The position numbers were made by a program, and so were the translations under genes. Below the pieces are notes generated by a model. It was not told the origin of the DNA. It saw only the letters and a list, made by a program, of their open reading frames with translations, and searched no databases. Below are positions 4,022-36,019 of a DNA stretch of 64,000 bases, piece after piece. The stretch spans positions 1 through 64,000 of the forward strand of contig JACOST010000024.1 in the NCBI GenBank assembly GCA_016178705.1, in the 5' to 3' direction. How positions within the stretch are numbered: the first letter of the stretch is position 1; every line of letters starts with the position of its first letter. The stretch is from Deltaproteobacteria bacterium. GTDB taxonomy: Bacteria > Desulfobacterota > Binatia > HRBIN30 > JACQVA1.

Positions 4022-5049
4022 CACACCGACCCCACTTCGCTCAAGCTCACGCTGACCGAACCCCGCGCGAGCGACTGTTCGGCGGCAGCCAGCACGCGCA
4101 CCACGCGCACGCCGCTGGCGCCGTCGGCAAGCGGCGCGCTGCCGGTGCGAATGGCGCGGGCGAACTCTTCGCACTCCAGACGCAGCGGCTCGTCGTTGCT
4201 GAGCAGCGGCACTTCGACCTTCGCCGGCCGGTAGAACAACGCGTGCGCGTCGTCGTCTGTGGCCCCCGCGCGGCTGTCGAAACCCTGATCGAAGATGCGT
4301 ACCTTCTCCGGCACCGTGTCGTCGTACAGCATCGAGCCCCGCGTCCCCATCACGAACAGCCGGCGGGTCTTGTGCGGCGACAGCCAGCTCACATGCACGT
4401 GGCCCATGCGGCCACTGGCGAAACCGAGGTGAACGAACGCCGCATCGAGCAAGCCATCGCGCGTGAAGCTACCGGCAAACGCAGTCACCGTTTGCGGCGC
4501 CTCACCCGCCAAGAGGATCTGCATCGAGAGGTCGTGCGGCGCGAGATCCCACAGAACGTTCACCTCGCTCGTGGGCGGGCCCAAGTTGATGCGCACCGCG
4601 TCCATGTACGCGAGATCCCCGATCAGGCCGTCGGCGAGAGCGGTGCGCAGTGCGGTCACCGCCGGGTGATATTCGAACAGGTGGCCGACGCCGACGACGA
4701 GTCCCCTCTGCGCCGCGAGCGCGACAATCTCCTCGGCCTCGGCCGCGGTCATCGCCAACGGCTTCTCGATGAACACGTGCTTGCCGGCGCGCAACGCCGC
4801 CAGCGCCAGCTCATGATGCGTCGACACGGGGGTTACGACACAGACCGCGTCGATGGCGGGATCGCTCAGGATCGGCTGATGATCCTCCGACAACGTGACG
4901 TCGGGAAACTGCTCCGCCACGAAACGCCGCCGCCCGGCGCGGCGATCGGCAGCACGGAGTACGCGACACCCCTGCACCGTGTTGAAACTGCGCAGCACGT
5001 TCGGCCCCCAGTAGCCGCAACCGATCACGCCGATGCCGAGCTCGCGCAT
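4021..5049 (-). CDS. Gfo/Idh/MocA-family oxidoreductase (WlbA/WbpB-like role)
   Basis: A 342-residue NAD(P)-dependent sugar oxidoreductase. The N-terminus GVIGCGYWGPNVLRSF is the dinucleotide fold, followed by TPVSTHHELA and the family signature HVFIEKPLA. Homologues with the GYWGPN start include UDP-N-acetylglucosaminuronate 3-dehydrogenases (WlbA). That fits the neighbours, a canonical aminotransferase and a WbpD-like acetyltransferase, plus the 6-dehydrogenase at 36028-37362. I infer oxidation at C3 of UDP-GlcNAcA. Start ATG 5049 overlaps the upstream stop as TGATG; longer in-frame starts fall inside the upstream gene. Confidence 0.82.
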   Translation of the reverse strand: MRELGIGVIGCGYWGPNVLRSFNTVQGCRVLRAADRRAGRRRFVAEQFPDVTLSEDHQPILSDPAIDAVCVVTPVSTHHELALAALRAGKHVFIEKPLAMTAAEAEEIVALAAQRGLVVGVGHLFEYHPAVTALRTALADGLIGDLAYMDAVRINLGPPTSEVNVLWDLAPHDLSMQILLAGEAPQTVTAFAGSFTRDGLLDAAFVHLGFASGRMGHVHVSWLSPHKTRRLFVMGTRGSMLYDDTVPEKVRIFDQGFDSRAGATDDDAHALFYRPAKVEVPLLSNDEPLRLECEEFARAIRTGSAPLADGASGVRVVRVLAAAEQSLARGSVSVSLSEVGSV

Positions 5050-5984
5050 CACGTGCCCCCACGGCCGCCGACCACCACGCGCACTGTTTCCCACAGCACG
5101 CGCAGATCGGTGCGCCACGTCCGTCCGAGCGCGTAACAGATATCCATGAAGGCCATCTCGTCGGCCAGCACGTGCCCGCGGCCGCGCACCTGCCACAAGC
5201 CGGTCAGGCCCGGCCGCACCGCCAAGCGGGCGCGCTGCCACCGCTTGAGCAATTCGTACTCGTACACCAGGCACGGACGCGGCCCGATCAGCGTCATGTC
5301 GCCGACCAGCACCGAGAACAACTCCGGCAACTCATCGAGACTGTGTCGCCGCAAGACACGCCCGATCGCGGTCACGCGCGACTCATCGACAATCTTGCCC
5401 GCCACGTTGTCTCCATCAACAAACTCCGCGAAGCGTTGACGCCGCTGCGCTTCGTCTTCACCCTCCAGTCGCATCGTGCGGAACTTGTACCACGTGAACC
5501 GCCGCCCGTCTTGCCCGACCACCTCCGCCCGGTGCAGCGCGGAGCCGGACGACGACATTCTGACTAGCAGCGCGATCAACAGCAGCGCCGGCGAGAGCAG
5601 CAGCAGCCCCATGGCCGCCACGACGATGTCGAGACCACGAGTAAGTGAGCCCGGGACGCGCGCGCCCGAGAACACCACACCGGCGAGTCCGCCAATGGAT
5701 TCGTTGCGCAGCAAATCACTGATCGTCGGCAGCGCGGAGGCTTCCAACCACACCGACACGCCGCGCTCGGCGCAACGTCGCGCCAGTTGCGCCAGCCGGT
5801 CGCGCGAGATTCCAGTGGCAGCCACCAGCACACGATCGACACCAGGCGGCGGGTCCATCGCGATCGAATCGGGTGCAAGCACGTCGCCCACTACCTCGAA
5901 ATTTGCCGCGCGTGCCGCGCGCATGACCGCGTGCGCTGCGTCCCCCACTCCCACGATCACAACCGCGGACACCGAGTCGCTCAA
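5049..5984 (-). CDS. Phosphoglycosyl transferase (undecaprenyl-phosphate sugar-1-phosphate transferase)
   Basis: A 311-residue sugar transferase that should start lipid-linked repeat-unit assembly at the inner membrane. Residues 1-105 form a nucleotide-binding-like domain without the usual four membrane helices. A single membrane segment lies at about 118-142, followed by the catalytic domain with WYKFRTM near 165-171, the Asp217-Glu218 pair in HSLDELPELF, IGPRP, and RPGLTGLWQVRG. All expected catalytic positions are present, unlike the relative at 1488-2912. ATGA overlap upstream and TGATG overlap downstream indicate translational coupling. Confidence 0.88.
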   Translation of the reverse strand: MSDSVSAVVIVGVGDAAHAVMRAARAANFEVVGDVLAPDSIAMDPPPGVDRVLVAATGISRDRLAQLARRCAERGVSVWLEASALPTISDLLRNESIGGLAGVVFSGARVPGSLTRGLDIVVAAMGLLLLSPALLLIALLVRMSSSGSALHRAEVVGQDGRRFTWYKFRTMRLEGEDEAQRRQRFAEFVDGDNVAGKIVDESRVTAIGRVLRRHSLDELPELFSVLVGDMTLIGPRPCLVYEYELLKRWQRARLAVRPGLTGLWQVRGRGHVLADEMAFMDICYALGRTWRTDLRVLWETVRVVVGGRGGT

Positions 5985-7150
5985 CCTCCGCAGGCATCCC
6001 GCACGGCGGCGATCACCGCATCACTGTGCGCTTCGGTCATGTGCGCCCACAGCGGCAGCGACACGACTTCGCGCGCGCAGCGCTCGGCCACCGGGAACGT
6101 GCCCTCGAGTAACTCCAGGTATGCGAACCCGGGCTGACGGTGCACCGGGACCGGATAGTGCACGCCTGTCGCAATCCCACGTGACGCGAGCGCATCGCGG
6201 AAGTGTTCGCGATCCGGCACGCGCACGACGTATTGATGATAGACCGACTCGCGACCCTCGGCGTGGCGAGGCAACTGGACGCGCAAGCCGGCCAGCCGCT
6301 CGTCATAGCGCTGCGCCCAACGCCGACGCGCCACGTTCCACTCATCGAGTCGGCGCAACTTGACGCGCAACACTGCCGCTTGCAGCGCGTCGAGCCGCGA
6401 GTTGCCGCCGTCGGGCAGCACGTGGGTGTACTTCTCCGTCTGCCCGTGATCGGCGAGCAAGCGGATTTGTTCGGCGACGGCGGCATCGTTGGTCGTCACT
6501 ATGCCGGCGTCGCCCATCGCACCGAGATTCTTTGACGGGAACAAACTGAAGCCGGCAACGTCGCCGAGCCGACCGACACGACGCGACGCGCCCGCCACTA
6601 TGCAGCGCGCGCCGACCGCTTGCGCGGCGTCTTCGATGATCCGCAGCCCGTGCTGCCCGGCCAAGCGCATCAGCCCCTGGATGTTCGCCGGCAAGCCATA
6701 CAAATGGACCGGCATGATGGCGCGCAACGTCGCACCGCTGCCCTTGACCACGCGCCGGCCCCCGCGCGCTTCGGTCTGCTCGCGTACGAAGCGCTCGGCG
6801 GCAACGACATCGAGCGTGAAGTCGGCGTCGGCGATGTCGACGAATACCGGCTGCGCACCGACTTGGATGATCGCCTCGACGCTCGCGACGAACGTGAACG
6901 GTACCGTGAGCACCGCATCGCCGCGGCCGATGCGGCAGGCTTGCAGCGCCAAGCGTAACGCATCAGTGCCGTTGCCGACGCCGACCGCGAAGCGCGCTCC
7001 GCAGTAGTCCGCGAATTCTTCCTCGAAGCCCGCAACCTCCTCGCCGCCGATGAATCGCGAAGAGCGCAGTACGCCGGCGATCGCGGCGTCGATCTCAGTG
7101 CGCAATTCTTCGTACTGCGCGTGCAAGTCGGTGATGGGGACGTGCGTCAT
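5981..7150 (-). CDS. DegT/DnrJ/EryC1/StrS sugar aminotransferase (WbpE-like)
   Basis: A 389-residue PLP-dependent nucleotide-sugar aminotransferase. Visible motifs are ITDLHAQYEEL at the start, GNGTDALRLAL for cofactor phosphate binding, PVHLYGLPAN, and IIEDAAQAVGAR. FSLFPSKNLGAMGDAG contains the lysine expected to form the Schiff base. Family members put an amino group on a keto-sugar. Next to the Gfo oxidoreductase and the hexapeptide acetyltransferase, the likely reaction is transamination of UDP-3-keto-GlcNAcA, as done by WbpE/WlbC. ATGA overlaps join it to both neighbours. Confidence 0.88.
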   Translation of the reverse strand: MTHVPITDLHAQYEELRTEIDAAIAGVLRSSRFIGGEEVAGFEEEFADYCGARFAVGVGNGTDALRLALQACRIGRGDAVLTVPFTFVASVEAIIQVGAQPVFVDIADADFTLDVVAAERFVREQTEARGGRRVVKGSGATLRAIMPVHLYGLPANIQGLMRLAGQHGLRIIEDAAQAVGARCIVAGASRRVGRLGDVAGFSLFPSKNLGAMGDAGIVTTNDAAVAEQIRLLADHGQTEKYTHVLPDGGNSRLDALQAAVLRVKLRRLDEWNVARRRWAQRYDERLAGLRVQLPRHAEGRESVYHQYVVRVPDREHFRDALASRGIATGVHYPVPVHRQPGFAYLELLEGTFPVAERCAREVVSLPLWAHMTEAHSDAVIAAVRDACGG

Positions 7151-26024: not shown

Positions 26025-29000
26025 ATGCAGTGTCCCCAGTGTCAGCACGAGAACCCACCAGGCGCCAAGTTCTGCCTCGAATGCGGCGCGCGGCTCGCGC
26101 TCGCGTGCGGCCAGTGCGGCGTACAGCTCCCGCCAGGTGCGAAGTTCTGTTTGGAATGTGGCGCTTCATTGGCTGCAAGCGACAAGCTGAAAGCTGAAAG
26201 CCAGACTGCCTCCGAACCCCGAACCCCTAACCCCCTTGCTCCTTCCGAAGTCGGCGAGCGCCGGCAGCTCACGGTGCTGTTCTGCGATCTCGTCGGTTCC
26301 ACGGAGATCGCCGCGCAACTCGATCCGGAGGACTGGCACCGCATCTCGAAGGAGTACCAGCAGGTCGCCGCGGCGGCGGTCACCCGCTTCGGCGGTCACG
26401 TCGACAAATTTCTCGGCGACGGCCTGGTGTGTTTCTTCGGTGTGCCCGAAGCGCACGACGATGACGCCGAGCGCGCCGTGCGCGCGGGGTTGGCGATTGT
26501 CGATGCGGTGCAGACGTTGAACAAGAGCCTCCTCCCTAGCCCTCCTCCGTTGCCGGAAATGGCAACAGAGGAGGGAATCCTGATCCCCTCCTCTGCGAGC
26601 ATCTCCGCGAGCGGAGGAGGGTTAGGGTGGAGGCCGATCCTCTCCGTCCGCGTCGGCATGCACACGGGATCGGCCGTTGTTGCTCACGGCGGGGGCGCGG
26701 CGCAGGACGTCTTCGGCGACACCCCGAACATCGCGGCCCGTGTGCAAGGCGCCGCTGAGCCCGACACCGTCGTGATCACGGCGGCGACCCAGCGCCTGGT
26801 GGCCGGGCTCTTCGTCGTGGAAGATCGCGGGCCACACGCGCTCAAGGGGATCGCGGCCCCCGTCGGGCTCTACCGCGTGGTCCAGGCAAGCGGTGTGCGC
26901 GGCCGCTTGGCGGCGGCAGCCGCCAGCGGTCTGACGCCGTTTGTCGGCCGCGAGCGCGAGCGGCAGACGGTGGCGGAGGCGTGGGAGCGGGCACAGGACG
27001 GCGAGGGGCAGGTGGTGCTGCTCAGCGGCGAGGCCGGGATCGGCAAGTCGCGCCTGGTGCAGGAGTTCAAGGCCAGTCTCGCGCAGACGCCGCACACCTG
27101 GATCGAGAGCGGCGGCTCGGCCTACTACGACACCACGCCGTTCCACGTCGTCGCCGATCTCCTGCGCCAGGGGTTTGGCTTTCTGGCGGATCTCTCCACC
27201 GAGGCCCGGCTCGACGCTCTCGACCGGTCGCTCGCGGCGGTGGGCCTGAAGCCGGCGGAGGCGGTGCCGGTGGTCGCACCGCTCCTCGACCTGCCGCTCC
27301 CCGAGGGCCGCTATCCGCCCCTGTTTCTCTCTCCCGAGCAGCAGCGCAAACGCTTGCTGGCGACCTTGGTGGCGTGGGTGTGCGGCGCGGCACGGCTGCA
27401 GCCGAGCGTGATCGTGATCGAGGATCTCCACTGGGTCGATCCCTCGACGCTCGAACTGCTCGGACTCATGGTCGAGCAGGGAGCGCGCGAGCAGTTGCTG
27501 TTGGTGCTGACGGCGCGACCCGAGTTCCGCGCGCCGTGGCCGCTGCGGTCGCATCACACGCAGCTCACGCTGAACCGGCTGACCAAGCGGCAGGTGCACG
27601 AGATGATCGTGCGCGTCGCCGTGCGCGTAATCCCGCCGGGGGAGATGCTGGAGGCGCTGGCTGTGCGCACTGACGGCGTGCCGCTGTTCGTAGAAGAATT
27701 GACCCGCGCCGTGCTGGAGGCGGAAGGCGCCGCCCTGATGACGCGGGAGATTCCGGTGACGCTGCAGGACACGCTCATGGCGCGGCTCGACCGGCTCGGA
27801 CCGGCGAAGGAGACCGCGCAGATCGCGTCGGTGCTCGGGCGCGAGTTCTCGTATGCGCTGCTGCACACCGTCAGCGGACTCGCCGACGACCCGCTGCAAG
27901 CGGTGCTCGCGCAGCTCACCGACGCCGAGCTGATGTATGTGCGCGGACTGCCGCCCGAAGCGACATACACCTTCAAGCACGCGCTGATCCAGGACACGGC
28001 GTACGAGTCGCTGCTGAAGAGCCGGCGCCGGGAGCTGCACCGCGCGGTGGCGGAGGCATTGACGGGCCGGTTCGCCGCCCTGGCCGCGGCGCAGCCGGCG
28101 GTCGTGGCGCAGCACTGGGAGACGGCGGGCGACGCGGAGCGCGCGACGAGCGCGTGGCAGGAGGCGGGCGACCGCGCCAAGGAGCGGAGCGCCATGGTCG
28201 AGGCGGAGGGGCACTACCGGCGCGCGCTGTCGGTGCTGGCGACGCAGCCGGACACGCCCGCGCGTGCCTCGCAAGAGTTGGCGCTGCAGATCGCGCTCGA
28301 TGCCGTTGTGAGTGTCACCCGCGGTTATGTGTCGGCCGAAACCGAGCCGACCAGGAAGCGAGTGCGCGAGCTGAGCGCGCAAACTGGCGATACGCGACAA
28401 CTCGTGTTTTCGCTCATACTTGCATGGGCGCTGCCGATCGCGCGCGGCGAACCGCGTGCAGCCCTGGTCTTCGCTGAACAGGCACTCGCGGCGGCCCGCA
28501 ACGACGGCTCCAACTTCGCGCTCGCCTGGGCACATATGGCGGTCGGGCAGACGCAATTCGAGCTCGGCGACCTCGAGTCCGCAGGCGAGCACGCCGCGGA
28601 GGCCCTGCGATTCTATCGCGAGGAAGACCATCGCGACTGGCCAACCGAGCCTGGGGCGGTGGCCCAAGCGATTCTGGCGTGGGTCTCGGCGCACAAGGGC
28701 TTTCTCGAGCGTGCCCACGGCGAGATCGAGAAGTTGCTCGGGCACGGTCAGCGACTGACGCTCGCATCGCAGGGCTGTTTCGTGCACGTGTGTGCGGCTG
28801 CCGCGCACGCATACCTCCGCGAGATCACTGGCGTCACGGTGCACGCGAATCAGAGCCTCGCCTCTGCGCTGGAAAACGATCTGCCACAATTCACCGGATG
28901 GAGCCGCATCTTCTGCGGCTGGGCGCTCGCCCTTCAAGGTAAGCGAGAAGACGGGATCGCCGAACTGCGAGAGGGTCTCGTGGGCTGCGCCGCCACAGGG

Positions 29001-29408
29001 ACTCGCGCGACGGCGGGGCAGTACCTCGGCTGGCTCGCCGAGGCGCAGCTCCTGGCCGGGCAGGTCATCGACGGCCTGAGCACCATTGAGGAAGCGCTGA
29101 CAGCGGTTCCCGAGCAACGCATACACATCCCGGAGTTGCTGCGCCTACGCGGCGAGCTGCGCGCCGCCGCCGGCGCCGATGTCGCCACCGTCGAGGCAAG
29201 TTTCAATGAATCGGTCGCCCTCGCGCGCGACATCGGCACCAAGCTCATCGAGCTGCGCGCCACCACTAGCCTGGCGCGCTTTCTCGCCCGCCACGGCCGC
29301 ACGGACGAAGCGCGCGCCCGCCTCGCCCCGCTCTATGCTTGGTTCACCGAAGGCTTCGACGCGCCCGACCTGCAAGATGCCAAGGCGCTGCTGGAAGAGT
29401 TGAAATGA
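26025..29408 (+). CDS. Zinc-ribbon / class III nucleotide cyclase / AAA-type ATPase / TPR regulator
   Basis: 1127 residues. Two zinc ribbons (Cys3-x2-Cys..FCLECG and CGQCG..FCLECG) come first. A class III cyclase domain follows (~79-285) with metal Asp88 (LFCDLVGST), Asp132 (FLGDGLV), and Asn235/Arg239 (PNIAARV) present, so it could make a cyclic nucleotide. Next comes a large ATPase domain with Walker A GEAGIGKS (335-342) and IVIEDLHWVD, then TPR-like helices to the end. This is the adenylate-cyclase/LuxR-MalT-like architecture common in soil bacteria. Residues ~167-204 are an insertion encoded by a palindromic element, between the helix after AIVDAVQTLN and the SVRVGMHTG strand. A TTGACA lies at 25986, with no good -10. 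Confidence 0.9.
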   Translation: MQCPQCQHENPPGAKFCLECGARLALACGQCGVQLPPGAKFCLECGASLAASDKLKAESQTASEPRTPNPLAPSEVGERRQLTVLFCDLVGSTEIAAQLDPEDWHRISKEYQQVAAAAVTRFGGHVDKFLGDGLVCFFGVPEAHDDDAERAVRAGLAIVDAVQTLNKSLLPSPPPLPEMATEEGILIPSSASISASGGGLGWRPILSVRVGMHTGSAVVAHGGGAAQDVFGDTPNIAARVQGAAEPDTVVITAATQRLVAGLFVVEDRGPHALKGIAAPVGLYRVVQASGVRGRLAAAAASGLTPFVGRERERQTVAEAWERAQDGEGQVVLLSGEAGIGKSRLVQEFKASLAQTPHTWIESGGSAYYDTTPFHVVADLLRQGFGFLADLSTEARLDALDRSLAAVGLKPAEAVPVVAPLLDLPLPEGRYPPLFLSPEQQRKRLLATLVAWVCGAARLQPSVIVIEDLHWVDPSTLELLGLMVEQGAREQLLLVLTARPEFRAPWPLRSHHTQLTLNRLTKRQVHEMIVRVAVRVIPPGEMLEALAVRTDGVPLFVEELTRAVLEAEGAALMTREIPVTLQDTLMARLDRLGPAKETAQIASVLGREFSYALLHTVSGLADDPLQAVLAQLTDAELMYVRGLPPEATYTFKHALIQDTAYESLLKSRRRELHRAVAEALTGRFAALAAAQPAVVAQHWETAGDAERATSAWQEAGDRAKERSAMVEAEGHYRRALSVLATQPDTPARASQELALQIALDAVVSVTRGYVSAETEPTRKRVRELSAQTGDTRQLVFSLILAWALPIARGEPRAALVFAEQALAAARNDGSNFALAWAHMAVGQTQFELGDLESAGEHAAEALRFYREEDHRDWPTEPGAVAQAILAWVSAHKGFLERAHGEIEKLLGHGQRLTLASQGCFVHVCAAAAHAYLREITGVTVHANQSLASALENDLPQFTGWSRIFCGWALALQGKREDGIAELREGLVGCAATGTRATAGQYLGWLAEAQLLAGQVIDGLSTIEEALTAVPEQRIHIPELLRLRGELRAAAGADVATVEASFNESVALARDIGTKLIELRATTSLARFLARHGRTDEARARLAPLYAWFTEGFDAPDLQDAKALLEELK
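26183..26235. repeat. Short tandem repeats (GCTGAAA and CCGAACCCC types) in cyclase linker
   Basis: Two different simple repeats, AAGCTGAAAGCTGAAAGC and then CGAACCCCGAACCCCTAACC, run in frame between the second zinc ribbon and the cyclase domain. They encode a low-complexity linker (residues ~53-72). Confidence 0.8.
26523..26637. repeat. Palindromic element inserted in frame in cyclase domain
   Basis: About 115 bp with nested inverted repeats. CCCTCCTC pairs with GAGGAGGG around an inner GTTGCC/GGCAAC hairpin. A second CCCTCCTC..GGAGGAGGG pair follows, and outer arms CCCTAGCCCTCC / GGAGGAGGGTTAGGG close the unit. No stop codon is introduced in the host reading frame. Confidence 0.8.
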
Positions 29409-30788: not shown

Positions 30789-30959
30789 CGCCTGCGCGGC
30801 GAGCTGCGCGCCACCACCAGCCTCGCGCGCTTCCTCGCCCGTCACGGCCGTACGGACGAAGCGCGCGCGCGACTCGCCCCGCCTTACGCCACCTTCACCG
30901 AAGGCTTCGACACGCCCGATCTGAACGACGCCAAGGTGCTGTTAGAGGAACTGCGATGA
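30789..30959 (+). pseudogene. Truncated paralogue of the cyclase/TPR gene 3' end
   Basis: 57 codons ending in TGA that match the C-terminus of the protein at 26025-29408. LRGELRA is followed by TTSLARFLARHGRTDEARARLAP and then FTEGFD, PDL, DAK, LLEEL, with about six substitutions in the last 48 residues. Relative to the intact gene, 32 codons are missing exactly between two copies of the 13-bp sequence CGAGCTGCGCGCC (29153-29165 and 29249-29261). This looks like a deletion by recombination between short direct repeats. There is no start codon or upstream domain. Confidence 0.8.
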
Positions 30960-31058: not shown

Positions 31059-31352
31059 ATGAATCCTTTGGCCGTCATAGAAAGTCACCTCGCCGAAGTT
31101 CGTGCCCTCGGAGCACGACGCATCGGTGTGTTCGGCTCCTTCGCACGCGGTGAGGCACGCGACGACAGCGACGTAGACATATTCGTCGAGTTCGAGGACG
31201 AGAAGCGCACCTACAACAACTTCTTCGCCTTGCACGAACTGTTGGAAACACTACTCGGACGCCGCGTCGACTTGGTGACCGACAAAGCCCTCGTCGAGAC
31301 CAAGGCACGGCTGATCCTCCCGACGGTTCGCTATGCTTCCATCCACGTCTGA
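31059..31352 (+). CDS. mntA: MNT-type nucleotidyltransferase antitoxin (MntA-like)
   Basis: 97 residues. It carries the minimal nucleotidyltransferase motif GSFARGEARDDSDVD, which fits GS-x10-D-x-D exactly. In type VII toxin-antitoxin systems this enzyme AMPylates a Tyr of its HEPN partner and so blocks it. ATG 31059 begins right at the domain. It overlaps the HEPN gene by 20 bp, the usual arrangement of the pair. Confidence 0.88.
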   Translation: MNPLAVIESHLAEVRALGARRIGVFGSFARGEARDDSDVDIFVEFEDEKRTYNNFFALHELLETLLGRRVDLVTDKALVETKARLILPTVRYASIHV

Positions 31353-31680
31353 GTTGTTGCGCGACATCTTGCGCGAAGCGGAGTTTCTGGAGAGCGAAGC
31401 GCGGCGGACCAACCAAGTGGCGTTCCTCGACAACGAAGTCCTCAAACGCGCCTTCGTGCGAAGCGCGGAGGTCATCGGCGAAGCCGCCAAACAAGTCCCC
31501 GAGGATACGCGCGCGCAGTTCCCGAATTTCGAGTGGAAGAAAATGGCCGGCATGCGCGATCGCCTCATTCACGGCTACGCCGGCGTGGACTACCTAATCG
31601 TCTGGGACGTCGCGGTCACCCATGCTTCGGAACTTGCCGCGAAACTCCGCCCTATCCTCAAGGGGCTGAGCGACGCATAG
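31333..31680 (+). CDS. hepT: HEPN-domain toxin (HepT-like, DUF86)
   Basis: 115 residues of the HepT/DUF86 family, a four-helix HEPN RNase. The catalytic motif R-x4-H-x-Y is present as RDRLIHGY, and NEVLKRAFVRSAEVIGEAAKQVP is the typical conserved helix. The motif tyrosine is the expected target for AMPylation by the MNT partner encoded just upstream. All key residues are intact, so the module looks functional. Confidence 0.9.
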   Translation: MLPSTSELLRDILREAEFLESEARRTNQVAFLDNEVLKRAFVRSAEVIGEAAKQVPEDTRAQFPNFEWKKMAGMRDRLIHGYAGVDYLIVWDVAVTHASELAAKLRPILKGLSDA

Positions 31681-31851
31681 TCCGTCGTTCTGTTGGCGGT
31701 TGAGCGGCATCGTCAACGGCTCGTCACGGTTACGCGACTACCAACGGCTGCCTCTGAAAGACAGGCAAGACAGTCGCGTGATCCGCGGCGCGTGTATCGA
31801 AAACTCCTTTCGCACCGTAGCGCGGGCATCCGCCATCGACATCGTGCCCGC
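31681..31851. other. Spacer with no recognised gene
   Basis: About 170 bp between the HEPN gene and the duplicated polymerase tail. Short frames cross it on both strands, but none has a recognisable domain or a ribosome site. Confidence 0.5.
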
Positions 31852-32108
31852 TTACGACCCGAAGTACGCCAAGAACTCCTTCGCTTCACTATTTCCCGGG
31901 TCGGCTTGGAGGACGAGATTGTAGAACTCGCGCGCTTCGCTGCCCATTTCGAGTTGGCGGTAGTTGCGCGCCAGCGCGAGTAGAATCTCGCCGCGGTGGT
32001 CGTGGACGAACGGAGTCGGCGGGTCGGCGAGTAGGCGGCGATACTGTTCGTTGGCTTTGCCGTACTCTCGACCACCTTCGTACAAACGCGCCAAACGATA
32101 GCGGTACT
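31852..32108 (-). pseudogene. Second copy of the 3' end of the O-antigen-ligase/TPR gene
   Basis: 85 codons nearly identical to the last 85 of the gene at 32931-35396 (YRYRLARLYEGG..EYGKANEQYRRLL..LALARNYRQLEMGS..LAYFGS). I count about 15 mismatches in 257 bp, only two of which change the residue, and the stop codon differs (TAA versus TAG). The homology starts 2 bp after the VapC stop codon and ends at the ligase stop. There is no plausible start for the fragment by itself. Confidence 0.85.
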
Positions 32109-32110
32109 TC

Positions 32111-32539
32111 TCAGCACCTCTCACGATTCGGCACGATCCGGAAGCGACGGCGGCCATCGATTCGATAGGTCTCGAAGTCGTCGTAGTCGATGGTGAAGAT
32201 TGTATTCAACGACTCCCGGCGCGCAAGGTGCACCAGCGTCGCATCGGCGAAGTCCATTGGCCGGTCATGGTAGCGCGCCATCAACGCGTCGAGCGCCGCC
32301 AGATCCGCGTCGTCGATCGTCGCGACGGTGACTGCTCCGGAGCGGACAAATCTCCATGCGGCCGCAACATCGCGTCGTTGATCGCCAATGAGATGGAACA
32401 GCTCGGCCAGAACCGCCGCCGAGGTCAGCAGCGGCAATCGAAGATACGAGAACGCGGCAACACATGCTTCATGCCATTTGTCGTCGCGGTCGAGCAGCGC
32501 GAGCAACGCGCCGGTATCGACCAGCACGCTAGCGGGCAC
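32111..32539 (-). CDS. vapC: PIN-domain ribonuclease toxin (VapC-like)
   Basis: 142 residues with the PIN-fold acidic residues: Asp8 in VLVDTGALLALLD, the Glu in AVLAELFH, the Asp pair in MDFADATLV, and IDYDDFETYR near the end. It should be an RNase toxin of a VapBC-type module. Its ATG overlaps the end of the antitoxin gene by 11 bp. It ends immediately before a duplicated piece of the polymerase gene, which marks a recombination junction. Confidence 0.85.
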   Translation of the reverse strand: MPASVLVDTGALLALLDRDDKWHEACVAAFSYLRLPLLTSAAVLAELFHLIGDQRRDVAAAWRFVRSGAVTVATIDDADLAALDALMARYHDRPMDFADATLVHLARRESLNTIFTIDYDDFETYRIDGRRRFRIVPNRERC

Positions 32540-32816
32540 GGCGCTCAGCCAACCGCCGCCGGATCAGTTCACGCGCCTCCTCGGAGCGACGCTGATTGCC
32601 GCTGCGGATGACCCCGAGTGTTCGCACGGCCGCCGCGTGCAAGCGCGCTTGTTCTGATCCGTCGCCGCCTGATCTCACCCGAAGATCGGCCAACCACTCA
32701 TGCACGACACGATCCAGCAGACGCCCGATGGAGCTGCGTTCGCGACGGGCGGCGTGCTCGAGCGCGGCCTTGGTCTCCGGCGCAACCCGCCAACTGTACA
32801 CTTCGCTCTTCGCCAT
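32529..32816 (-). CDS. Ribbon-helix-helix-like antitoxin for VapC
   Basis: 95 residues starting MAKSEVYSWRVAPETKAALEHAARRE. This is a short beta strand followed by two helices (SSIGRLLDRVVHEWLADL), as in ribbon-helix-helix DNA-binding antitoxins. The basic C-terminus (EARELIRRRLAERRAR) would wrap VapC. ATG 32816 is chosen over 32852 because the extra residues are not domain-like. RHH antitoxins normally repress their own operon through palindromes near the start; none is obvious here. Confidence 0.7.
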   Translation of the reverse strand: MAKSEVYSWRVAPETKAALEHAARRERSSIGRLLDRVVHEWLADLRVRSGGDGSEQARLHAAAVRTLGVIRSGNQRRSEEARELIRRRLAERRAR

Positions 32817-32930
32817 GCACCACACCGTAGTGCATCCAGAGCAGCCGGTCAATTTTCCCGTGCCTCGCCGTTCCGCGGATCGTTCTTGAGCACCAGCTCG
32901 TAGCCATGGGCGGCGGACGACACCTCCCCC

Positions 32931-35396
32931 CTACGATCCGAAGTACGCCAAGAACTCCTTCGCTTCGCTGTTGCCCGGGTCGGCTTGGAGGACGAGGTTG
33001 TAGAACTCGCGCGCTTCGCTGCCCATTTCGAGTTGGCGGTAGTTGCGCGCCAGCGCGAGCAGGATTTCGCTGCGGTGGTCGTGGACGAATGGGGTCGGCG
33101 GGTCGGAGAGCAGGCGGCGGTACTGTTCGTTGGCTTTGCCGTACTCTCGACCACCTTCGTACAAACGCGCCAAACGATAGCGGTACTCCGACGCGCCCGG
33201 TGGCGCCACCGCGACGGCGTCGCGCACCAAACGCGCCGCGGCGGCGAAGTCGCCGCGGCGCTCGTAAATGGCGCTGAGTCCGGTGAGCACGTCGGGATCG
33301 CGACCGCCGTAGCGGCGGGCGGCGCTGAGCGCTTGCTGCGCCTTCTCCGGTTCGTTCGCGCCGAGCCAGTTGTAGCCGGCGTGTTTGAGCATCTCGGCGC
33401 GCATGAGATCATCCTCGGCCAGGATGCCGGCGCGACCGTACGCTTCCGCCGCGCCGCGCGGATCGCCGCGGAACTCGCGCACGCGCCCGAGCAATCGCGC
33501 GTCGCCGAGGCGCGCATCGTTCGACTTCAGCGCGCGGCCCAACTCGTCGTCGAGCGCTTGCGCCACGCGCGCCGAGTCGTCGAGACGGCCGGCGTCCTTG
33601 TAGGCCAGCGCAAGATAGAGGCGCACTTCCGGATCGGGCGGCAGCAACCGCTGCGGCAGATCTGGGTCCCAGATGATCGCGGTGCGCAGCAATTCGCGGC
33701 CACGTTCGGGATCGAGGGTGAGTGCTTGCTGCGTCCACTTGGCCGCGCGCGCTTGATCCACGGCCGACAGCAGCCCCCAATGCGTCAACGCCCATTCGGC
33801 CGCGACGCGGGTCCAGCCGCGATCGCGCGGCTGCAACCACACCGCGCGGTCGAAGATGTCGACCACGGCGTGGACGACTTCGACCGGGAGATAAAACCCG
33901 TAGCGCACCTCGGCGAGCCCCGACAGCGCCTCGCCGAGGTGCAGGTGCGCCGGCGCGTTGCTCGGCCGCAATTCGACCATGCGGGTAAACCCCTGCACCG
34001 CAGCCGCCCACGCATCAGCGATCTGCTGGCGCCGCGCCTCGCTGCTCAGATACGCGCGGTCGCGCATGGCGTCGTGACCAATCTGCAGCGCGAACGTAGC
34101 GGCGGCTTCGACCAACTCGACTTGCCCGCTCGCCATTCGCAACGCTGTGCCGACCTTGTGTACCTGCACCGGTCGCGGGTCCGGCGGACCGGCCAGCGGA
34201 TTCACCAGCGTCGTGTTGGGGAAGATGCTCCGCACCAGCGACTCGACCCAGTAGTTGCGGACGACGATCACCATCGCCACACCCGCCGCGACGATCGCCG
34301 CGATCGCCACCGCGCGCCGCCGCAGCGGCACGACACCTTGCAGACCCAATTCGGAACCGCGATCGAGCAAGCGCACGGTGATGCCAAACGCGACGGTGAA
34401 CAGCAGCCCGTTGGACGGGATGTGGAGATTGAAGTCGGTGAAGGAATGAAACAGCAGCGCGGTCATCGCCGTGATCAGACCGAGCGCGATCAGAACTTGC
34501 ACGTCTTGTGCGTCGCGCACGCGCCGGCGCAGCAAGCCGATGAAGCGAACGAACAGCCAGGCAAAGCAGATGGTACCGAGCACGCCGCTCTCGACCAGCA
34601 GCTGGAAGTAGTCGTTGTGAGCGCGATCGAAGTAGGTGCGCGTACCTTCAGGTTGGTAACGCGGGAACAGCCATTCGAAGTTTCCGAGGCCAATGCCGAA
34701 GACTGGAAAGTCGCGCGCCATCACCAGCGTCTCGCGCCACAAACTCGGGCGCGAGTAGGGCGTGAGCTGCATCTCGCCACCGAAGCGCGCCATCATCTGC
34801 GGCGACTGCAACCACAGCAGAGCGAGCGCCGCGAGCGCGACGGCGCCGATTGCCACGCGTCGGAGCGTCAATTGCCGGCGCCAGGCACCGAGCGCGAGTG
34901 AGCCGACCGCGAGGCCGCCCAGCGACGACAACACGCCGCCGCGGCTCTGCGTCATGCCCATCGCCATCAGCATGATCGCGGTCGCACCGAGCAGCAGCAA
35001 ACCGATCGCGCTCGCACTGCCCTGTCCGCTGCGCGGCGGCGCGGCTTCGCGACGACTCTGCGCGGAGCGCCGGCGGCGACGGCGGGCCGGAATGAAACTC
35101 AGCGCGAGTGCAATAGTGATCGGAATCGCCAACTCGAAATAGCCGGCGAGATGACCGCGGTTGACGAACGTGCCGGTGGCCGAATCAACGTAGACGGTTT
35201 TGCGCAACCAGAAGATCTGCGGATGGCGCGCCACCACTTGATAGATGCCGTAGAGCGCTTCGACGATGCCGATGGCGGCGACTACCGCGAGCCAGGCGCG
35301 GACGCGGGAGAAAAAGACGTCGCGTGATGACGAGTCGGAGCCGGCTACACGTTGCTCACCGCGCTGCCCAAGCCTCCACGGATATGCGATGAGCAA
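32931..35396 (-). CDS. O-antigen ligase/polymerase-TPR protein, main part (frame 2 of a split gene)
   Basis: 821 codons in frame after a homopolymer, giving membrane helices (RAWLAVVAAIGIVEALYGIYQVV), the Wzy_C-type segment GTFVNRGHLAGYFELAIPI with its periplasmic Arg/His, and MTQSRGGVLSSLGGLAVGSL. From about residue 390 a TPR region runs to the end (RLARLYEGGREYGKANEQYRRLL). The first frame is at 35345-36019, and joined they give about 1030 residues. Ligase-TPR fusions of this kind polymerise or transfer exported glycans. The apparent TTG start at 35396 is inside the T-run and is unlikely to be used by itself. Confidence 0.8.
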   Translation of the reverse strand: MLIAYPWRLGQRGEQRVAGSDSSSRDVFFSRVRAWLAVVAAIGIVEALYGIYQVVARHPQIFWLRKTVYVDSATGTFVNRGHLAGYFELAIPITIALALSFIPARRRRRRSAQSRREAAPPRSGQGSASAIGLLLLGATAIMLMAMGMTQSRGGVLSSLGGLAVGSLALGAWRRQLTLRRVAIGAVALAALALLWLQSPQMMARFGGEMQLTPYSRPSLWRETLVMARDFPVFGIGLGNFEWLFPRYQPEGTRTYFDRAHNDYFQLLVESGVLGTICFAWLFVRFIGLLRRRVRDAQDVQVLIALGLITAMTALLFHSFTDFNLHIPSNGLLFTVAFGITVRLLDRGSELGLQGVVPLRRRAVAIAAIVAAGVAMVIVVRNYWVESLVRSIFPNTTLVNPLAGPPDPRPVQVHKVGTALRMASGQVELVEAAATFALQIGHDAMRDRAYLSSEARRQQIADAWAAAVQGFTRMVELRPSNAPAHLHLGEALSGLAEVRYGFYLPVEVVHAVVDIFDRAVWLQPRDRGWTRVAAEWALTHWGLLSAVDQARAAKWTQQALTLDPERGRELLRTAIIWDPDLPQRLLPPDPEVRLYLALAYKDAGRLDDSARVAQALDDELGRALKSNDARLGDARLLGRVREFRGDPRGAAEAYGRAGILAEDDLMRAEMLKHAGYNWLGANEPEKAQQALSAARRYGGRDPDVLTGLSAIYERRGDFAAAARLVRDAVAVAPPGASEYRYRLARLYEGGREYGKANEQYRRLLSDPPTPFVHDHRSEILLALARNYRQLEMGSEAREFYNLVLQADPGNSEAKEFLAYFGS

Positions 35397-36019
35397 AAAA
35401 AAACCGCGCTGTAGGTCAGCATGCGCAGCAGTTCTTCGACGTCGCGATAGCGATAGATCGACAACGGGCGCCAGCGGCTCATCGCGGGCATTCGCTGCAC
35501 CAGCGCGGTCAACTCAGCCACCACCGGCGCCGCGCTCGCCACCGCCGCGTCCGGTTGGTCACTCACCGAGGCGAGCGGCCCGACCTGCGGCGGCCGGCCG
35601 GCATTGTCGCGCAACGCGGCGACGATCGAATCAAGTTGGCTGAACGGCTTGTCGTCAGGCCAGCCCAGCAGGTGATCGCGATAGAGCGCGTAGGTGTTGG
35701 GGCTCAGCACTCGGAGCACTGCCGGCGGCAACGGCAGCAACTGCACCACGGCGAGCGCACCGAAGCACAGCATTGGAAGACTCCAACCGCGGAGGCGGTC
35801 GTTGGCCGCGGTGGTGCTGCCACACACCAGCGCCTTGCTGCCCCACACGATCACGAGCGCTGCGGTGAGCAGCTCCATGATCGCCTGCGCCCACGCGTGT
35901 ACCGAGCCAAAGGCGAGCGGCGTGAACACCAAGAGCGCGATGACGCCGCCGTGAACGAGGGCATCGCACCGGCGGCCGAAGCGCTCGCGTTGAATGGGCG
36001 ACGACGTCAAGGTTTGCAA
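35345..36019 (-). CDS. O-antigen ligase/polymerase-TPR protein, N-terminal part (frame 1 of a split gene)
   Basis: 224 codons. The N-terminus has VIALLVFTPLAFGSVHAWAQAIMELLTAALVIVW, the first helices typical of this ligase family, then LPMLCFGALAVVQLLPLPPAVLRVLSP. It ends with RPLSIYRYRDVEELLRMLTYSAVFF, after which the reading frame leaves the family and stops. The other frame continues naturally with LLIAYPWRL. The gene follows the UDP-sugar dehydrogenase by 8 bp. One inserted T (ten instead of nine) or two deleted would restore the reading frame. Confidence 0.8.
   Translation of the reverse strand: MQTLTSSPIQRERFGRRCDALVHGGVIALLVFTPLAFGSVHAWAQAIMELLTAALVIVWGSKALVCGSTTAANDRLRGWSLPMLCFGALAVVQLLPLPPAVLRVLSPNTYALYRDHLLGWPDDKPFSQLDSIVAALRDNAGRPPQVGPLASVSDQPDAAVASAAPVVAELTALVQRMPAMSRWRPLSIYRYRDVEELLRMLTYSAVFFCSSHIRGGLGSAVSNV
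35395..35403. other. Nine-base A/T homopolymer at the frameshift point
   Basis: Nine A on the plus strand (nine T in the mRNA sense) exactly where the two ligase frames meet. It could be a sequencing or assembly error, a true mutation, a phase-variable tract, or a site of transcriptional slippage. Confidence 0.85.

Follow-up and report, generated by a model that had tools for sequence, protein, structure and literature searches.

A toxin–antitoxin pair between two diverged copies of an O-antigen ligase gene end, and the same layout around other toxin–antitoxin loci

Layout of the locus

The 64-kb stretch of contig JACOST010000024.1 analyzed here (the window, whose positions serve as coordinates for all repeats and genes of the locus) carries a predicted toxin–antitoxin (TA) pair between two copies of the 3' end of an O-antigen ligase gene. 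Lone TA modules between conserved genes occur in many chromosomes, and the mechanisms by which such modules move and integrate are described as remaining unelucidated in the available part of a 2020 review (PMC7167474). The features of the locus are the following:

32931..35396, minus strand: Wzy_C O-antigen ligase gene with C-terminal tetratricopeptide repeats (TPRs) and intact 3' end (PF04932, E = 1.8e-21, and TPR models)
32931..33187, minus strand: copy A, the last 257 bp of the ligase gene (direct-repeat comparison)
32849..32925, minus strand: possible third gene-end fragment between the ligase stop and vapB, a TPR-like peptide with stop (weak DNA match to the ligase 3' end of a relative, G001)
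32817..32835, minus strand: conserved stretch upstream of vapB, operator- or promoter-like by inference (four relatives align from module position 91, which is window position 32835)
32529..32816, minus strand: vapB, antitoxin gene overlapping vapC (44–55% conserved with the gene before vapC in seven relatives)
32111..32539, minus strand: vapC, PIN-domain toxin gene (PF01850, E = 8.3e-10; VapC26 chain 5x3t, E = 9.3e-10)
31852..32108, minus strand: copy B, the truncated spare ligase 3' end, with its reading frame kept and a TAA stop (15 mismatches to A, two non-synonymous, no gaps)

The first-pass annotation of this DNA, made from sequence alone, had reported a ligase-end repeat of about 257 bp in the same orientation, with about 15 mismatches, two residue changes and a TAA/TAG stop difference, and all of this is reproduced. 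A PIN toxin gene and a small antitoxin gene do lie between the copies, and copy B does begin 2 bp after the TGA stop of vapC. The gene itself had been called both a ligase/TPR gene and a polymerase gene; the former name can be refined to the Wzy_C ligase above, and the latter is corrected. The PIN domain scores above the Pfam cut-off for PF01850, and its best match in the Protein Data Bank (PDB) is VapC26. Relatives of vapC are found in other genomes (seven, at 66–72% identity), each with the same gene pair. The antitoxin had been described as RHH-like, for which no support is found, as the window protein has no match in Pfam (E <= 0.01), NCBIfam (E <= 0.01) or the PDB (E <= 1); the VapB of another locus, L117, matches RHH_1. 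The predicted pair, a PIN toxin with a small co-conserved upstream gene, fits a VapBC type II module.

Where DNA similarity to the module reaches the upstream side (four relatives), it begins at 32835, just before vapB. The insert would therefore consist of the TA pair and about 90 bp that separate this position from the ligase stop. Within those bases, the stretch 32849-32925 matches the G001 ligase 3' end weakly and uncertainly (76% over 49 bp, E = 0.011) and has no Pfam match at E <= 1; it could perhaps be a trace of an earlier event.

The ligase-end repeat and its divergence

The direct repeat spans 262 nt at 94% identity (31847-32108 and 32926-33187; E = 5e-112 in a self-BLAST of the window). 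The sole other direct repeat longer than 100 bp in that comparison is the 3' end of a cyclase gene (29249-29398 and 30800-30949, 85%). In the coding part of the ligase repeat, 13 of the 15 mismatches are at third positions (12 synonymous codons and the TAG/TAA stop), and the other two are non-synonymous (S/A and S/G). A DNA search of the organism's own genome with 31700-33200 returns this place alone, and a protein search with the ligase returns three matches: the gene, copy B and a weak TPR hit. Searched against plasmid records with blastn, 31700-33300 has no match.

The polarity of the changes can be read by eye from an alignment that uses G001 as a distant outgroup. Six differences arose on copy A (two non-synonymous), six on copy B (none non-synonymous) and three are undecided; since the outgroup is 26% diverged, individual sites may mislead. 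With 13 of 15 mismatches silent and all six assignable changes of the spare copy synonymous, the first-pass proposal that both copies evolved as working gene ends is upheld. The first 67 nt of the repeat are free of mismatches (P = 0.009), and in locus L117, described below, 16 of 18 mismatches fall in the 3' half (P = 0.0007), both tests having been chosen after the data were seen; such clustering may be of the kind that a crossover inside the repeat leaves. In the window copies, changes derived from A and from B seem by eye to form a mosaic with a crossover near codon 41, which was set aside as too insignificant for use.

G001 is the sole other member of the family compared and belongs to a different genus. 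Its whole polysaccharide cluster is syntenic with the window, and the two ligase proteins are 66% identical. The first-pass annotation had proposed a search of relatives for the ligase gene with and without the module. G001 has a single ligase end with an unrelated, convergent gene behind it, and a search for vapC there gives nothing at E <= 1e-15; this arrangement fits an empty form of the locus, without giving the direction of change. A contig search with the ligase adds six distant relatives, which are 28–33% identical in the best segment and whose 3' ends are not comparable. As a separate observation, the ligase gene consists of two overlapping frames broken at a nine-T run (CGGTTTTTTTTTGCTCAT; window 35389-35406, minus strand). 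G001 has the identical T run, with the same position and frame change (L038, near 6800-6815), and this shared feature hints at programmed slippage or frameshifting over sequencing error.

Recurrence around other toxin–antitoxin loci

In a survey of 148 genomes of the class, vapC is found at 66 places in 44 genomes, and all 65 places outside the window were scanned for tight repeats, defined as direct repeats of at least 40 bp with E <= 1e-4 within 350 bp of both module edges. Such repeats are present at 9 of the 65 loci, against 29 of 2520 mock modules placed in the same loci; as mock placements overlap, the nominal Fisher P of 2e-7 is too small and overstates the evidence. Inspection by hand identifies six of the nine as duplicated gene 3' ends:

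L117: luciferase-like gene
L120 and L158: ABC_sub_bind genes
L149: NMT1 gene
L141: ExbD gene
L176: glycosyltransferase gene

The ExbD 3' ends on both sides of L141 are fragments, with no intact gene, and the longer copy in L158 is interrupted by the contig end. A further locus, L179 (HsdS), lies just beyond the distance limit of the tight class. Its arrangement (4257-5663) is nested: an HsdS end, vapBC, a small HTH-like gene, a 62-bp copy of the HsdS end and a 209-bp copy of the vapC end (93%).

The layout is also found around a second type of module. Among 40 scanned MNT-HEPN loci (of 51 other places), 10 have tight repeats, compared with 15 of 1467 mock modules. Three of these are gene ends, namely a 2-hydroxyacid dehydrogenase (L205) and two ABC_sub_bind genes (L223 and L224); the longer copy in L223 is a 200-aa frame without the N-terminal third of its family. 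Counting every tight direct repeat as an event was abandoned once the identities of the repeats had been inspected. The MNT-HEPN loci set aside comprise L199, L200, L203, L207, L211 and L235, with interspersed, array-like or unassigned repeats, and L214, with whole ABC_sub_bind paralogues on either side of the TA pair. Several TA loci (L199, L200, L207, L211, L155 and L161) lie within non-coding or low-complexity direct repeats. The gene-end repeats are 62–262 bp long, and the inserts of the TA cases measure about 0.7–1.1 kb. Beyond the class, repeats span 1 of 14 vapC loci (L268, not classified), so the pattern may be rarer elsewhere, although this sample is small.

Two scans are independent of the index modules. 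The first, a scan for gene 3' ends over 939,924 bases, gave 41 raw rows, of which 16 were kept by hand; the other 25 proved to be shadow frames, arrays or pairs of paralogues. It adds a HigB toxin between ABC_sub_bind ends (L174), a BrnA antitoxin between dioxygenase ends (L226), DUF5677 and DUF2283 genes (L137) and a PPOX flavoprotein (L160). The second covered 800,000 bases chosen irrespective of TA genes and gave 13 raw rows; L273, L290, L291 and L295 were inspected, L270, L282, L292 and L303 were left out of inspection, and two were kept. In L291, ispD is followed by a DUF4160-DUF2442 pair and a 126-bp copy of the ispD end; in L290, a CobW end surrounds an oxidoreductase gene, with the copy out of frame. 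Together with the cyclase repeat of the window, seven events thus lie outside the index modules. Two of the seven hold a TA gene by Pfam name and three clearly hold none (SRPBCC, PPOX, oxidoreductase). The DUF pairs of the remaining two are presumably linked to TA systems. TA genes are frequent in this anatomy, the unbiased sample (two of seven by Pfam name) being small, and the non-TA cassettes between copied ends indicate that other small cassettes use the same anatomy too.

Divergence of the copies across loci

Copy-to-copy divergence ranges from 1 to 21% across loci. The codon changes can be compared with a null in which the copies are identical at birth and the spare then drifts. When 11 gene ends are taken together, synonymous changes make up 141 of the 204 codon changes, against 76.7 expected under this null, and without the paralogue-rich families the figures are 56 of 82 against 30.6. 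Seven of the 11 pairs reach P < 0.05 singly (the window, L117, L120, L149, L205, L223 and L291). This synonymous excess suggests that many pairs evolved as working gene ends before they met.

Uninterrupted counterparts

The clearest comparison is available for L176 (genome G054), where a glycosyltransferase gene is followed by vapBC (insert of 701 bp), a 167-bp copy of the glycosyltransferase end and a methyltransferase gene. In G027, of the same genus, the glycosyltransferase and methyltransferase genes are joined without interruption, and the DNA onward from copy B in L176 is the DNA that continues in G027. For L205 (G135), a similar comparison can be made with G029, whose gene is 95% identical: the match behind copy B runs 61 nt past the stop, and the matching of copy A ends at the stop. 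Because the truncated copy is joined to the shared downstream DNA in L176 and L205, the spare appears to be the resident one and the end of the intact gene the incoming one. The first-pass annotation had supposed that the extra copy came from a related genome; a foreign contribution is retained here, and in L176 and in L205 (one of five relatives) it is the opposite copy that looks foreign.

A partial counterpart exists for L117. In a sister genome (G135), the same vapB stands behind the same gene with neither an intact vapC nor a spare copy, and G049 has the luciferase-like gene without the module. At the G135 place (L183, 3374-3830), where vapB is kept behind the luciferase-like gene and no intact vapC is present, the gene following vapB is one that we take to encode a TIR-like NTPase.

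Origin of the duplicated gene ends

The same layout around TA pairs in related genomes makes the duplicated gene end look like a footprint of TA entry into chromosomes. Its interpretation builds on what is observed: the layout itself, the reappearance of that layout at modules of several TA families, the excess of synonymous changes, and a single uninterrupted counterpart, which places the truncated copy on the resident side. We give roughly even chances to the reading that the window locus is the product of homology-anchored insertion by one crossover with a circularized donor fragment. The donor would be a related bacterium, and the fragment a short piece of DNA in which the ligase 3' end is directly followed by vapBC; once in the cell, its two ends would be linked to give a small circle. 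A single RecA-type crossover within the ligase 3' end would then integrate the circle, leaving an intact gene (resident 5' part and donor 3' end), vapBC and the severed resident 3' end as copy B. The window has the form of a single crossover, with a gene end, an insert and a partial gene-end copy in direct orientation. Any small cassette right behind a conserved gene could use the same route, and TA modules would be common in this anatomy because they are positioned behind conserved genes and are persistent.

An experimental parallel is known from E. coli, where, in the available part of the report, DNA with one homologous end gave 60 recombinants, 56 of them with a partial duplication of the homologous locus (109–950 bp in the 14 sequenced). 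The explanation offered there is degradation, recircularization and a single crossing-over, the other four recombinants being illegitimate, with deletions (PMC3240628). As the natural loci share the form of these duplications, a circularized donor with a single crossover is judged the likeliest explanation.

Several observations weigh against this reading. Three of the nine tight vapC loci (L129, L155 and L161) have interspersed, array-like or unassigned repeats rather than gene ends, as do seven of the ten tight MNT-HEPN loci when whole paralogues are counted with them, and four of the gene-end cases belong to the paralogue-rich ABC_sub_bind family. Identity at birth is not rejected for L174, L176 (two coding changes), L224 and L226. 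In L205, copy A shares the base of the nearest relative at 14 of the 20 sites that differ and copy B does so at 4, and the copies are sisters (support 0.916), the spare having the most changes and the longer branch; to judge by this sequence pattern, the case partly resembles drift of a spare copy. Native DNA continues behind copy B in one of five L205 relatives (G029), the other four being too diverged, and G027 could have reached its empty state secondarily, if recombination between two copies removed the module. The spacing from the vapC stop to copy B, 0 nt in L176 and 2 nt in the window, is tighter than expected of a fragment with random ends. As the genomes compared include no congeneric one, the incoming ligase copy cannot be named. 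On which allele is resident and which is donor, the synonymous bias agrees with the circularized-donor reading, and L205 leans to drift.

The sister copies of L205, with the spare on the longer branch, are as expected if vapBC was inserted at the gene end by a staggered break or similar repair that copied 60–260 bp, with the copies identical at birth, diverging later, and the working gene at times replaced by related alleles. The L176 copies, which differ at only 4 of 167 sites, and a published TA module that has identical 152-bp repeats on both sides, outside the coding region (PMC7935541, in the part available), favor this as well. The pooled synonymous excess over the 76.7 changes expected speaks against it, as do the six of six synonymous changes assigned by eye to the window spare. 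Moreover, the gene-end repeats end 0–49 nt before the stop (or, in L149, L176 and L179, run 20–24 nt past it), and random duplications would extend further into intergenic DNA, which leaves this explanation rather unlikely. A different objection is raised by gene families: copy B may be all that is left of a tandem or paralogous gene, its 5' part having been replaced on vapBC entry. ABC_sub_bind, NMT1 and cyclase genes are multi-copy (the window genome has 91 matches to its cyclase family), and L214 has its TA pair between whole paralogues. The ligase, with its three own-genome matches, has no second close relative, and in L176 and L205 the copies occupy the site of a single gene end in relatives, so that we consider a remnant improbable.

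Genomic islands often bring a replacement 3' end for the gene they enter, and the first-pass annotation had likened the window element to one. That likeness is not sustained, as the stretch between the copies holds neither an integrase nor an att-like site. The idea of a replacement 3' end is partly supported: the layout recurs with other TA modules and genes, and L176 has an uninterrupted counterpart; an element with fixed borders finds no support. A site-specific element of the integrase island type or, alternatively, homology-facilitated illegitimate recombination, which uses one homologous side, would be quite improbable as the means by which vapBC was placed. The TA pair stands alone between the copies with no integrase, repeats of 62–262 bp with varying 5' borders are unlike att sites, and no common att-like core is seen by eye across the junctions of nine repeat pairs. 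Illegitimate events in the E. coli experiments gave deletions, while duplications arose from single crossovers, as far as the available text goes (PMC3240628). A transposon with target-site duplication was rejected in view of the 62–262 bp diverged copies and the lack of a transposase between the window copies. Many of the genomes are in hundreds of contigs, and strain mixtures in a metagenome bin can make false joins. An assembly artefact is very improbable all the same: the sequences that meet at the junction of vapC and copy B share no word of the length that a graph misjoin requires, and L179 (G031) and L291 (G061) lie in single-contig assemblies, which disfavors misassembly.

A bolder extension of the circularized-donor reading, to which we attach a small probability, is that TA modules of several families in the class spread as integrase-free gene-end circles. 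The TA pair and a gene 3' end would excise by recombination between the copies and re-enter any genome or paralogue with that gene end, repairing the end on entry. The basis, and what would be the clearest case, is the layout of five loci in five genera (L120, L158, L124, L122 and L132), each with vapBC beside ABC_sub_bind 3' ends, which would be read as a circle moving between paralogues. The ABC_sub_bind piece on the vapB side begins about 152, 153 and 135 nt before the stop in L120, L158 and L124, and 36 and about 17 nt before it in L122 and L132 (by eye). In L120, L158, L122 and L132, but not in L124, a further ABC_sub_bind end lies within about 60 nt on the vapC side. Pairwise DNA matches in the group stop near the unit, if short matches and the ABC_sub_bind gene are set aside. 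The group could also go back to one old event, after which the genes moved.

Relation to known systems

The closest likeness is to the single-crossover (Campbell-type) integration at the lacZ end in E. coli, in which the insert is likewise flanked by a partial gene-end duplication. The duplications there, RecA-dependent in that system, measure 109–950 bp, against 62–262 bp here; that case is a laboratory plasmid, whereas the present loci are natural, their copies are 1–21% diverged and circularization would have to be supposed (PMC3240628, in the part available). The TA module behind MaOC1 in Microcystis aeruginosa also places a TA pair right behind a gene, with direct repeats of similar length. 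According to the accessible text, the MaOC1 repeats are identical and begin 14 bp after the stop, whereas here the coding 3' end itself is repeated and diverged (PMC7935541). The ccd pair between folA and apaH is another lone TA pair between conserved genes, and the accessible part of the review mentions no duplicated gene end there (PMC7167474). In Streptococcus pneumoniae merodiploids, uptake of short homologous DNA yields duplications, but those in the available account are tandem, measure about 100 kb or more and lie between chromosomal repeats (PMC3784515).

As in the present loci, entry of an integrase-type island keeps the gene whole, and the displaced 3' end is found at the far border. 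Unlike such islands, these loci have no integrase and no short common core, and the 5' border of the copy varies by locus. The literature searched, which lacks most subscription journals, yielded no account of duplicated gene 3' ends on both sides of a TA module.

The duplicated 3' end would serve as a readable scar that marks the insertion point, shows the resident side and dates the event through codon changes. The question of TA integration would thereby become testable by comparative genomics and a simple recombination assay. The proposed mechanism also offers a plain reason for TA modules sitting directly behind genes without breaking them.

Neighboring features of the window

A second TA pair and a second gene with a copied end lie beside the ligase locus:

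31333..31680, plus strand: HepT-like (HEPN) toxin gene (PF01934, E = 2.7e-22)
31062..31352, plus strand: MNT-type nucleotidyltransferase antitoxin gene, adjoining copy B (PF01909, E = 8.9e-14; MntA_antitoxin, E = 3.7e-13, below cut-off)
30800..30959, plus strand: copy of the cyclase 3' end, 85% (direct-repeat comparison)
29249..29408, plus strand: 3' end of the adenylate cyclase/AAA gene (26025-29408), the region's second gene with a copied end (direct-repeat comparison)

The MNT protein also matches the PADLOC candidate models PDC-S09 (E = 1e-24). An SRPBCC gene sits between the copies of the cyclase 3' end, and the cyclase gene is convergent to the ligase gene. With so many cyclase paralogues in the genome, a paralogue is a possible source of the copy at 30800-30959. 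The cyclase copy was at first taken to show the same kind of event as the ligase repeat and was demoted to a parallel in view of the 91 family matches. Inside the cyclase gene, a 108-bp stretch (26527-26634) matches its own reverse complement at 78%.

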